DNA from: Clostridia bacterium
GTDB lineage: Bacteria > Bacillota > Clostridia > Christensenellales > Aristaeellaceae
Assembly (NCBI GenBank): GCA_017519405.1
Contig: JAFWSH010000005.1
Coordinates: 160,329-224,328 of the forward strand
Length of the DNA stretch: 64,000 bases
Direction of reading: 5' to 3'
Both the position numbers and the translations under genes were made by a program. The notes below the pieces were generated by a model. That model did no database searches, was not told where the DNA came from, and saw nothing but the letters and a program-made list of their open reading frames with translations. Positions 47,060-51,422 of this stretch are shown piece after piece. The stretch's first letter is position 1. Each line of letters opens with the position of its first letter.

Positions 47060-47133
47060 TGCGTTCACCTCGTCACTGCAGGATAATGGGAGTTCCGGCC
47101 TGCTGCAGCCTTTTCGGGGAATCACCGGATTGG

Positions 47134-47205
<72 letters not shown>

Positions 47206-47312: not shown

Positions 47313-48146
47313 TTACTCGATCACGCCGCCCTCCACCACCAGGCTGTCCGCGTCCGCGTTGGGGCCGTAGGTCTCCCGGAGGGTGGCCTCATAGTCGGCG
47401 TGGAAGAAGTTCTCCTGGCCCAGGGCGACGATCTCGTCATTGATCCAGTTGAGCAGGGTTTCGTTCCCCTTGGTGACGGCGGGATTGATCGTGTCCAGGC
47501 TGCCCAGGGACTCAATGCCCACGCTGAAGCCGGGATTCTCGATGGCCCAGGCCAGCACCTCGGTGTTGTCGGTGGACAGCGCGTCGCCGCGGCCGTCGAT
47601 CAGGGCGATGTAGGCCTCCGTGTAGCTGTCGAACTTGAGGAGATTGACCTCCGGATAGTTGGCCTCGAAGAAGGTCTCCGCCGTGGTGCCCTTGGAGACG
47701 ATGAGGGTCCTGCCGTTCAGCTGCTCCGGCTCGGTGATCAGCGCGGCGTCGGGGCTGACCACACCCAGGGCCACCTTCATGTAGGGCAGGGCGAAGTCCA
47801 CCTGCTGGGCGCGGTCCTCGGTGTAGGTGAAGTTGGCCAGCACCACGTCCACCTTGTAGGACTGCAGGTACTCAATCCGGTTGGGGGCGTCCAGGGAGAC
47901 GATCTCCAGCGTCACGCCCAGGTCGGCGGCCAGGCGGCGGGCCAGATAGACATCGTAGCCCTGATACTCGCCGTTCTCATCCACATAGCCGAAGGGCTTC
48001 TTGTCGGAGAACAGGCCGATGACGATCTTCCCGCTATCCTTGATCTCGTCCAGGGTGCGGAAGCCGTCCGCGATGGCAGCGGAGACGGCGGTCAGGGTCA
48101 GAACCAGGGCCAGAATCAGGGCGGCGATCTTCGCGATGTTCTTCAT
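47313..48146 (-). CDS. polar amino-acid ABC transporter substrate-binding protein (probable cystine/cysteine)
   Basis: A 277-residue SBP_bac_3 protein with signal peptide MKNIAKIAALILALVLTL and cleavage after A-I-A near residue 26. KPFGYVDENGEYQGYDVYLARR, DVVLANFTYTEDRAQQVDF and the late SLGSLDTINPAVTKGN are typical of amino-acid binders. Lacking a lipobox, it might be anchored otherwise. The gene has its own promoter, a Cys-rich leader ORF and an attenuator-type terminator. The ligand is inferred as cystine or cysteine from this control and from tRNA-Cys, MetA/MetY and Rrf2 nearby. Confidence 0.85.
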   Translation of the reverse strand: MKNIAKIAALILALVLTLTAVSAAIADGFRTLDEIKDSGKIVIGLFSDKKPFGYVDENGEYQGYDVYLARRLAADLGVTLEIVSLDAPNRIEYLQSYKVDVVLANFTYTEDRAQQVDFALPYMKVALGVVSPDAALITEPEQLNGRTLIVSKGTTAETFFEANYPEVNLLKFDSYTEAYIALIDGRGDALSTDNTEVLAWAIENPGFSVGIESLGSLDTINPAVTKGNETLLNWINDEIVALGQENFFHADYEATLRETYGPNADADSLVVEGGVIE

Positions 48147-48191: not shown

Positions 48192-48254
48192 TCACGGGAA
48201 GGGGCTGCCTGTGCGCCGGCATCGGTCCTTGGCGCAGCGGGATCGGATCGTCAT
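48192..48254 (-). CDS. possible second small leader ORF before the binding-protein gene
   Basis: Twenty codons, beginning MTIRSRCAKDRCRR, with GGGAGG 6 nt before the ATG. It has Cys at residues 7 and 12 and lies between the attenuator terminator and the binding-protein gene. Too short to prove. Confidence 0.35.
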   Translation of the reverse strand: MTIRSRCAKDRCRRTGSPFP

Positions 48255-48274: not shown

Positions 48275-48313
48275 CAAGGAAAAGAGGCGGACAGTCTCGC
48301 AGCTGTCCGCCTC
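48275..48313 (-). terminator. attenuator terminator of the binding-protein gene
   Basis: Minus-strand GAGGCGGACAG and CTGTCCGCCTC form a perfect 11-bp stem with an 8-nt loop, followed by TTTTCCTT. It stands between the promoter/leader ORF and the structural gene. Its 5' arm can also pair with GTCCGTCTC at 48368-48376 inside the leader ORF (8 Watson-Crick pairs, one wobble), a ready-made antiterminator. Confidence 0.85.
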
Positions 48314-48344
48314 TCTGAAGGCATATGTTCTGTCTGTGCTGTTC

Positions 48345-48422
48345 TCAACGCAAACAGAGCTTCAGGTGAGACGGACGCCTGAAACAACACATGCGGCACA
48401 TCATGAGCTTTCTGGCTGTCAT
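48345..48422 (-). CDS. cysteine/methionine-rich leader peptide B (25 aa)
   Basis: GGGAGGACGGAGCC precedes the ATG at 48422. The peptide begins MTARKLMMCRMCCFRR and ends K-L-C-L-R: Cys at 9, 12, 13 and 23, Met at 1, 7, 8 and 11. The stop is 31 nt before the terminator stem. The arrangement of promoter, Cys codons, antiterminator segment and terminator is that of ribosome-mediated attenuation: scarcity of Cys-tRNA would stall the ribosome on the Cys codons and free the transporter gene from termination. The mechanism is inferred; the elements are seen. Confidence 0.75.
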   Translation of the reverse strand: MTARKLMMCRMCCFRRPSHLKLCLR

Positions 48423-48443
48423 GGCTCCGTCCTCCCTTCTTAT

Positions 48444-48464
48444 TGTCCACTATGTCGGTGGACT
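48444..48464. promoter_or_regulatory. inverted repeat at the transcription start of the binding-protein gene
   Basis: TGTCCAC and GTGGAC(T) arms with a 7-nt centre, covering about +1 to +21. A candidate operator for the Rrf2 regulator, with half-site G-G-A-C-A shared in part with the sites at 50803 and 50917. Confidence 0.5.
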
Positions 48465-48470
48465 ATGCGG

Positions 48471-48499
48471 ATTATAACCGCCTGGGTTCCTCCTGTCAA
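48471..48499 (-). promoter_or_regulatory. consensus promoter of the binding-protein unit
   Basis: Minus-strand TTGACA (48494-48499), 17 nt, TATAAT (48471-48476). The -35 box overlaps the stop codon of the ATPase gene, so the binding protein has an internal promoter of its own. Confidence 0.88.
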
Positions 48500-50627: not shown

Positions 50628-50657
50628 ACAAAAAACGCGCCCGTCAGCGCGGGCGTC
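50628..50657 (-). terminator. attenuator terminator of the permease unit
   Basis: Minus-strand CGCCCG and CGGGCG around CGCTGA, followed by CG and six T. It lies 13 nt before the permease ATG and 22 nt after the leader ORF stop. Confidence 0.82.
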
Positions 50658-50677
50658 AGGATCTGCCGGTCACGGCG

Positions 50678-50755
50678 TCATCTTTCTCCGCATGCTGAAC
50701 ATCGGCCCATCTGCATGGACCGACAGCACATTCCATGGCGCATGTCCTTCAGCAT
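50678..50755 (-). CDS. cysteine/methionine-rich leader peptide A (25 aa)
   Basis: AGGAGGAGTCCGCG precedes the ATG at 50755. The peptide starts MLKDMRHGMCCRSMQMGR and continues C-S-A-C-G-E-R: Cys at 10, 11, 19 and 22, Met at 1, 5, 9, 14 and 16. It has the same length (25 codons) and the same Met-Cys-Cys core as leader B at 48345, but a different remainder. It sits between a good promoter and an intrinsic terminator, so it is proposed as a cysteine-sensing attenuator controlling the two permeases and ATPase. Confidence 0.75.
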   Translation of the reverse strand: MLKDMRHGMCCRSMQMGRCSACGER

Positions 50756-50972: not shown

Positions 50973-51422
50973 GTGCTGATTTCCACGAAAGGCCGCTATG
51001 TCACCCGCATGCTGGTGGACATCGCCATGCATCAGGGCGACGGCTATGTGCCCATGAAGGATGTGGCAGCGCGCCAGCAGATTTCCAAGAAGTACATCGA
51101 GAGCCTGACCGCCCCGCTGGCGGAGGCGGGCATTCTGGGCATCCGCCGGGGCCATACGGGCGGCTACCGCCTGCTGGTGCCCCCGGAAGAGGTGACCCTG
51201 TGGCGCATCGTCAGCCTGACCGAGGGCTCCCTGCATGCCGTGGCCTGCCTGGAGCGGCCGGTCAACACCTGCGCCCGCTGCGGCTTCTGCATCACCCTGC
51301 CCGCGTGGGAGGGGCTGGAAAAGGTCGTCCGGGACTATCTGGAGAGCGTCACCCTCGGACAGCTGATCGGGCAGGCCAGACCACAGCCGGAGAACATCGC
51401 AGATTACCCCTGCGGCGTCTGA
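50973..51422 (+). CDS. Rrf2-family transcriptional regulator (CymR/IscR-like)
   Basis: A 149-residue protein. The canonical N-terminus (M)LISTKGRYVTRMLVDIA begins at a GTG at 50973 with AGGAGG 9 nt upstream; the open frame before it is not coding. The winged helix (VAARQQISKKYIESLTAPL, RRGHTGGYRL) is complete. The sensor region ACLERPVNTCARCGFC has four Cys (C-x7-C-x2-C-x2-C), which could bind an Fe-S cluster as in IscR. CymR-type members repress cysteine uptake genes. Divergent from the permease unit with shared operators, hence the likely regulator of both. Confidence 0.88.
   Translation: MLISTKGRYVTRMLVDIAMHQGDGYVPMKDVAARQQISKKYIESLTAPLAEAGILGIRRGHTGGYRLLVPPEEVTLWRIVSLTEGSLHAVACLERPVNTCARCGFCITLPAWEGLEKVVRDYLESVTLGQLIGQARPQPENIADYPCGV

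Follow-up and report, generated by a model that had tools for sequence, protein, structure and literature searches.

Leader B, a cysteine-rich ORF upstream of a gene for an amino acid-binding protein, is very probably part of a ribosome-mediated transcription attenuator of the trp/his type, which reads the supply of cysteine and probably that of methionine. Judged from sequence, the same arrangement of leader, terminator and solute-binding protein (SBP) gene is kept in dozens of related species.

Organization of the locus and its occurrence in the family

The window (the whole 64-kb stretch of DNA that was analysed) comes from a 2.27-Mb draft genome, 80% complete, whose near relatives are MAGs of uncultured Clostridia, several of them of gut or rumen origin. 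Reading along the minus strand, on which all features located below lie apart from a divergent regulator gene, one meets leader A, two permease genes, an ATPase gene, a promoter with leader B, mini-ORF C and the binding-protein gene, followed by tRNA-Cys and the genes for a homoserine acyltransferase (PF04204) and an O-acetylhomoserine/serine sulfhydrylase (TIGR01326, 613.9 bits, above cutoff). The putatively regulated gene (47313-48146) encodes a family-3 SBP of a polar amino acid (cystine-like) ABC transporter (PF00497, 94.7 bits). Cystine is our best guess for the substrate, with cystine models under cutoff and other amino acid models scoring equal or higher: the protein reached 95.5 bits against the cystine-SBP model NF008426 (cutoff 312) and 116.8 bits, also under cutoff, against the lysine/arginine/ornithine model TIGR01096.

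The SBP gene was found (E ≤ 1e-40) in 76 of the 308 family genomes, and 50 of these 76 loci, from 11 genera, carry a Cys-rich leader ORF in front of it. A scan for short ORFs with a Shine-Dalgarno sequence and a Cys-Cys or Cys-x-Cys motif found 47 of these leaders, three were added by hand, and 44 of the 50 contain a Cys-Cys pair. The 26 loci lacking leader B comprise 20 of a distant subgroup (58-64% identity) and those of G071, G076, G074, G090, G078 and G203. Within the stretches fetched, tRNA-Cys is present in five of the 76 loci. In the window the tRNA-Cys (GCA; 47131-47205) lies downstream of leader B, in the same direction and inside the sulfur operon; therefore, the operon may carry the very tRNA that its leader senses. 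One relative (G008) has a second stretch elsewhere in its genome that is 85% identical to the operon tRNA-Cys stretch, and this genome may therefore have a tRNA-Cys besides the operon copy.

Leader B (48345-48422) is a 25-codon ORF, MTARKLMMCRMCCFRRPSHLKLCLR, preceded by the Shine-Dalgarno sequence GGGAGG (48431-48436). As the initial annotation had it, the peptide contains Cys at positions 9, 12, 13 and 23 and four Met including the start. With its Shine-Dalgarno sequence, start codon and Cys/Met codons, repeated at 50 loci, it is a predicted leader peptide rich in codons for amino acids of the pathway. When the 64 kb were scanned for an ORF that follows a Shine-Dalgarno sequence, has at least four Cys and a Cys-Cys pair and is accompanied by a high-scoring terminator, leader B was the single match, and 30 shuffled windows gave none; leader A fails the terminator threshold of this test. 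The leader peptides searched against NCBIfam and Pfam gave no matches. The equal 25-codon length of leaders A and B, previously used as an argument against chance, is a coincidence and means little, because leader B has between 21 and 31 codons in relatives, a range that depends on the chosen start codons. In one close relative (G006, locus L031) the second Cys codon of the pair has changed from TGT to CGT and the terminator arm contains a mismatch, a pattern resembling that of a decaying attenuator.

The perfect sigma-70-type promoter TTGACA-17-TATAAT of the initial annotation was confirmed at 48471-48499 (12/12 matches), its -35 element overlapping the stop codon of the upstream ATPase gene. 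With a scoring that gave a small bonus to 17-nt spacers, the best promoter had such a spacer in all 50 homologues, and both hexamers matched at 12/12 positions in 40. An inverted repeat, GTCCAC-N7-GTGGAC (48445-48463), follows directly after the -10 and is likely either an operator or a 5' hairpin of the transcript. Palindromes alike in form and place, compared without a chance control, occur in many but not all homologues, and in several relatives the form is ATAACCCA-N9-TGGGTAAT. The repeat is possibly the operator of the Rrf2-type regulator encoded by a divergent gene starting near 50973 (TIGR00738, 99.2 bits, cutoff 73.3). Identification of this regulator as CymR was rejected (NF047409, 79.3 bits against a cutoff of 195), and only its membership in the Rrf2 superfamily holds. 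It is extremely improbable that a DNA operator alone matters here, with an Rrf2/CymR-type repressor acting at the promoter and the small ORF an evolutionary leftover. The palindrome, the divergent Rrf2 gene and the loss of a Cys codon and a terminator-arm pair in G006 would fit such control, but a leftover ORF would not retain the placement of its Cys and Met codons and covarying helices, the leaders occur in 11 genera, and an operator can coexist with an attenuator.

Terminator, antiterminator and the switch strand

Downstream of the leader, the 11-bp stem of the initial annotation is present at its original place (48313-48303 with 48294-48284, loop of 8 nt), whereas its U-run is interrupted, since the tail reads TTTTCCTT. 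The 5' arm is part of region 3 (48303-48320), which also holds the antiterminator 3' strand (48320-48315 and 48313-48305); the 3' arm and the U-rich tail constitute region 4 (48276-48294). A simple terminator scan of the window did not list this hairpin, probably because its stem can extend into the U-run. The order of terminator and binding-protein gene proved correct, yet about 130 nt separate them and mini-ORF C (48254-48192) lies between. A shuffle control was made because the hairpin finder always gives a best hairpin. The best hairpin downstream of the leader stop outscored all 20 of its own shuffles in 47 of the 50 homologues, the exceptions being G003 (scored before a reset by hand), G101 and G104. 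The mean score was 42.7 compared to 19.9 for the shuffles, and scores of at least 35 were reached by 37 of 50 homologues versus 1 of 1000 shuffles. The hairpin starts 16-34 nt past the leader stop in the 50 homologues (G003 was reset by hand from a script value of 47). These results point to an intrinsic terminator between the leader B ORF and the gene.

Control linked to translation or Rho, as for mycobacterial Cys-rich ORFs, would have stalling alter access to the gene's ribosome-binding site, or that of Rho, with the hairpin serving as the terminator of the upstream ATPase operon. Since the promoter is located inside the final part of the ATPase gene, transcripts from further upstream run into the terminator as well, and the mycobacterial Cys leaders are described, in the portion of that report available, without conserved terminator hairpins (PMC1262725). 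We consider such control very unlikely for leader B, where the hairpin keeps its distance of a few tens of nucleotides from the leader stop and its 5' arm covaries with a strand of the leader.

That strand, region 2 (48359-48379), is the predicted switch of the attenuator, with region 0, 1 or 3 as alternative partners according to duplex prediction, alignment and re-pairing tests. In the window its pairing with region 3 gives a 15-bp antiterminator (48376-48360 with 48320-48305), found by hand and by duplex prediction, in which GUCCGUCUC-AC-CUGAAG faces CUUCAG-A-GAGGCGGAC. The initial annotation had paired only 48368-48376 with 48305-48313; these nine pairs (eight Watson-Crick and one G-U) stand, and the helix is longer by 48365-48360 with 48320-48315. 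The duplex of region 2 with the terminator arm has an energy of -25.3 kcal/mol, which was reached by 5 of 2000 dinucleotide shuffles. Across 25 clusters, none of 100,000 random re-pairings reached the matched sum (means of the representatives -24.4 kcal/mol matched and -21.1 kcal/mol mismatched), which supports the earlier proposal of a built-in competing structure; since the clusters are mutually related, the permutation counts are not strict probabilities, and the leaders were chosen for Cys content. Relative to shuffles of region 2, the effect is modest (mean z -1.56 over the 25 representatives), with G020, G003 and G103 at or near the shuffle median. Taken alone, the core arm gave 15 of 20,000 in the re-pairing test, and the flank immediately preceding the terminator arm gave no significant signal over the clusters (z -1.06).

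Alignment A1 covers 26 of the 50 leaders, the other 24 having been left out, most for poor alignment. In it, 85.6% of the cells of the 15 antiterminator pairs are paired, compared to at most 61.3% when the strands are slid. Two-sided changes preserving the helix occur in 20 cells versus 10.4 in shuffled alignments, but they are confined to three pairs, all in the outer six-pair helix, and neither the number of such pairs (3 versus 3.7 shuffled) nor that of pair types (17 versus 17.5) is in excess. The nine-pair core shows one-sided changes or none, and 19 of the 26 sequences are mispaired at the column of the window's G-U pair. Thus, covariation between 48368-48376 and 48305-48313, which the initial annotation had set as its test, was found for the helix as a whole, whereas the core contributes its re-pairing result and no two-sided changes. 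The predicted antiterminator is mutually exclusive with the terminator and covaries with two-sided changes in the outer six pairs.

Region 2 is also contested by two more partners, neither of them in the initial annotation. RNAalifold proposed a protector hairpin 1:2, whose 5' arm (region 1, 48378-48385, GUUUCAGG, pairing with 48366-48359) begins within the Cys pair. In this hairpin 79.8% of cells are paired versus at most 58.7% when slid, the covariation score is 0.325 versus 0.226 shuffled, and two-sided cells number 18 versus 6.9 shuffled, but one slid version exceeds it in two-sided pairs (5 versus 4) and pair types (13 versus 12). Region 0 (48423-48432, GGACGGAGCC), beside the leader Shine-Dalgarno sequence, pairs with 48379-48369 of region 2. 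In the re-pairing test of this helix 0:2, 1 of 20,000 re-pairings reached the matched sum (z -4.70), compared to z values of 0.03 and -0.73 for two negative-control pairings.

Codon placement and the position of the leader ribosome

Region 2 was located on each leader by duplex prediction starting at codon 5, with no use of Cys positions, and the front edge of the ribosome was set, from the ribosome footprint size, at 15 nt past the first P-site base. Codons that place this edge 0-4 codons before region 2 include 51 Cys (40.8%) and 37 Met (29.6%) among 125, whereas all other leader codons include 57 Cys (12.2%) and 36 Met (7.7%) among 468. The share drops once the edge would enter region 2, from 44% to 24% for Cys and from 24% to 4% for Met. 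The leaders had been selected for the presence of Cys, not for its position, and not for Met; the p-values (8e-12 and 1e-9) overstate the effect because the clusters are related. In the window the corresponding control codons are Met11-Cys12-Cys13 (48384-48392), where Cys and Met codons are concentrated relative to region 2 over the 25 cluster representatives. Clustering of both kinds of codon just short of region 2 suggests a leader that probably responds to both sulfur amino acids; it is the best evidence that methionine counts too and favours the original label of a cysteine/methionine leader.

A peptide with such residues could also act by arrest, binding a metal or thiol ligand with its Cys and Met residues, so that the ligand and not tRNA charging sets the stalling. 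Clusters of the MCCMC type resemble thiol metal ligands, a conserved RPS...CLR tail is present in the leader peptides of part of the family, and the accessible text on the copper-sensing CruR of Bordetella offers a precedent for a ligand-bound arrest peptide (PMC9426467). However, the leaders differ greatly in how many Cys and Met they contain and in what order (MCRMCC, CMCMCMCMC, MCCMC, CCCMC), these residues cluster by ribosome-edge position, and the RNA strand encoded there accounts for the tail. The identified leaders precede transporters or enzymes of sulfur amino acids, an SDF symporter gene and one unknown gene, with no metal gene among them, and the arrest-peptide explanation appears very improbable.

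Folding with the leader segment covered, a check named in the initial annotation, was carried out on transcripts ending at the terminator 5' arm and on complete ones. With the truncated transcript of the window, the fraction of the arm paired to region 2 was 0.04 ribosome-free, 0.54 with Cys13 in the A site and 0.00 with the ribosome at the stop codon. Over the 50 homologues the means were 0.46 for a ribosome with the last core Cys in its A site, 0.06 for one at the stop codon and 0.40 ribosome-free, so the ribosome-free state fails to hold region 2 in most relatives. The stalled value exceeded that at the stop by more than 0.05 in 44 of 50, and the ribosome-free value by the same amount in only 21. 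Together with codon placement, this modelling indicates that a stalled ribosome would leave the antiterminator strand free. It also bears on the predicted protector pairings: both 0:2 and 1:2 covary and 2:3 is rare with the ribosome at the stop, but in ribosome-free transcripts region 2 is kept from region 3 only in some leaders, that of the window among them. In complete transcripts the terminator was favoured in the window even with a stalled ribosome (0.99), and its means over the 50 were 0.90 free, 0.87 stalled and 0.94 at the stop. Antitermination must therefore be kinetic, taking place before region 4 is transcribed.

For the attenuator we infer translation, stalling, termination, tRNA charging as the signal and methionine sensing as follows. 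Transcription would start at the strong promoter, and a ribosome would translate leader B. When Cys-tRNA (or Met-tRNA) is charged, the ribosome would reach the stop codon, region 2 would be held by 0:2 and/or 1:2, the terminator 3:4 would form, and transcription would end before the SBP gene. A ribosome stalled at Met11-Cys12-Cys13 would have its front edge at about 48377 with Cys12 in the A site, covering region 1 and leaving region 2 free from 48376; region 2 could then take the terminator 5' arm (2:3), and the polymerase would read on.

Related leaders and known systems

Leader A (MLKDMRHGMCCRSMQMGRCSACGER, 50755-50678) and its terminator (50655-50636), together 50636-50755, precede the permease genes. 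By a loose filter, an A-type ORF with a terminator-like hairpin occurs in 34 of 68 permease loci tested, 18 of them with both leaders and 16 with A only, so leaders A and B are separable modules. The best competing pairing of the window's leader A is weak (-14.7 kcal/mol); of the two independent attenuators initially proposed, A is therefore less well supported than B. The distant subgroup has a longer A-type peptide with a conserved CRMLISRAC.MAGASACMC before its permease gene. Mini-ORF C (MTIRSRCAKDRCRRTGSPFP, 48192-48254), with the conserved motif A-[KRT]-D-x-C, lies between the leader B terminator and the SBP gene and was found in 28 of the 76 loci, 27 by DNA motif and one by peptide; loci without leader B were counted only if the DNA motif was present. 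It is absent where the terminator is near the gene and in four longer-spaced loci (L087, L088, L090 and L104). Versions of it occur in three loci lacking leader B (G076, G074 and G203), and a RATDRCR version stands before another Cys-leader gene in G318 (L238/L239).

In a search outside the family, 31 of the best 80 of 544 named loci had a CC-type leader; 30 of these appear to come from family genomes, and the remaining one, L156 (Herbinix), has an unlike ORF without the core motif. The filter found no CC-type leader in the other 49, among which L130 is G006, with its Cys pair lost and only mini-ORF C seen. Model R1 was strong (E < 1e-20) in 26 family genomes, which is no independent test because it was built from them. 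Against 396 genomes of the order it gave five matches at E ≤ 0.001, strong in G000 and G082 (both of the family) and weak in G203 (family), G370 and G531 (both outside it). Four of the 46 weaker R1 places listed are known leader-B loci; 20 of the other 42 were fetched, of which seven had a Cys-rich leader ORF with a terminator-like hairpin, 12 had none and one was unclear. A scan of 89 further loci (L259-L347) gave three more candidates.

Further Cys-rich leaders with terminator-like hairpins were seen at L239 (G318), L240 (G221), L241 (G242), L242 (G235), L248 (G169), L249 (G279) and L253 (G020). Downstream of them lie MetN-like (L249, L253) and MetQ-like (L240) genes, which match the NCBIfam MetN and MetQ models under cutoff, a Cys/Met PLP-enzyme gene (L241), an SDF symporter gene (L248) and a gene for a protein without a Pfam match (L239); L242 is at a contig end. 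Similar leaders before MetN-like, MetQ-like and Cys/Met-enzyme genes agree with methionine sensing.

Cysteine control in Firmicutes is usually credited to CymR-type repressors, T-boxes and S-boxes, and T-boxes dominate in this phylum. T-box matches were present in 12 of 12 tested family members at E ≤ 0.001, ten of them above cutoff. A T-box or other Rfam riboswitch was rejected for the window, whose 64 kb gave only tRNA matches at gathering score. In trp/his attenuators, tandem regulatory codons, a protector, antiterminator and terminator that share strands, and a stalled ribosome make up the switch. Leader B resembles them in its leader peptide with tandem regulatory codons, its shared strands and its predicted stalled-ribosome switch; unlike them, it would read cysteine and probably methionine, and its region 2 has a third partner, the strand at the leader ribosome-binding site.

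Among known Cys-rich leaders, the polycysteine leaderless ORFs upstream of mycobacterial sulfur genes (Canestrari et al. 2020) are cited as a case of Cys-responsive translation attenuation (PMC13236596, PMC9094748). They share with leader B a short Cys-rich ORF before sulfur genes and Cys-responsive attenuation, which for leader B is predicted; as far as those citing passages describe them, they differ from leader B, which has a Shine-Dalgarno sequence, an intrinsic terminator and a covarying antiterminator. The predicted cys leader peptides of Mycobacterium, Propionibacterium and Bifidobacterium likewise have runs of Cys codons before cys genes, and the part of the report available leaves the mechanism open and gives no conserved terminator (PMC1262725). 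According to the excerpts available, His leader peptides before hisS*/hisZ in bacilli (PMC2965389) and a Leu attenuator peptide in Staphylococcus aureus (PMC5794164) represent leader-peptide attenuation in Firmicutes as proposed for leader B, with other amino acids and genes. CruR, also a Cys-containing upstream ORF controlling transporter genes, differs in sensing copper via the nascent protein and in its dependence on Rho, as outlined in the accessible text (PMC9426467). A Cys leader with an intrinsic terminator and antiterminator was not reported among the literature matches listed, in a search that covered mostly freely available papers.

More tentatively, and at slightly less than even confidence, we propose a lineage-wide attenuator regulon in which one leader peptide reads cysteine and methionine jointly and one RNA strand chooses among four states, region 2 acting as cover of the leader ribosome-binding site, as protector, as antiterminator or remaining open. 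If this is true, the 0:2 pairing would shut off further leader translation after the first ribosome, so that a single ribosome decides. With leader B, the sensing of two amino acids by a single peptide can be put to a direct test, and further sulfur attenuators that have been missed can be searched for on its pattern. Such an intrinsic, covarying Cys/Met attenuator, present across 11 genera within a single family of gut Clostridia, would be a clean case of leader-peptide control operating beside T-boxes.
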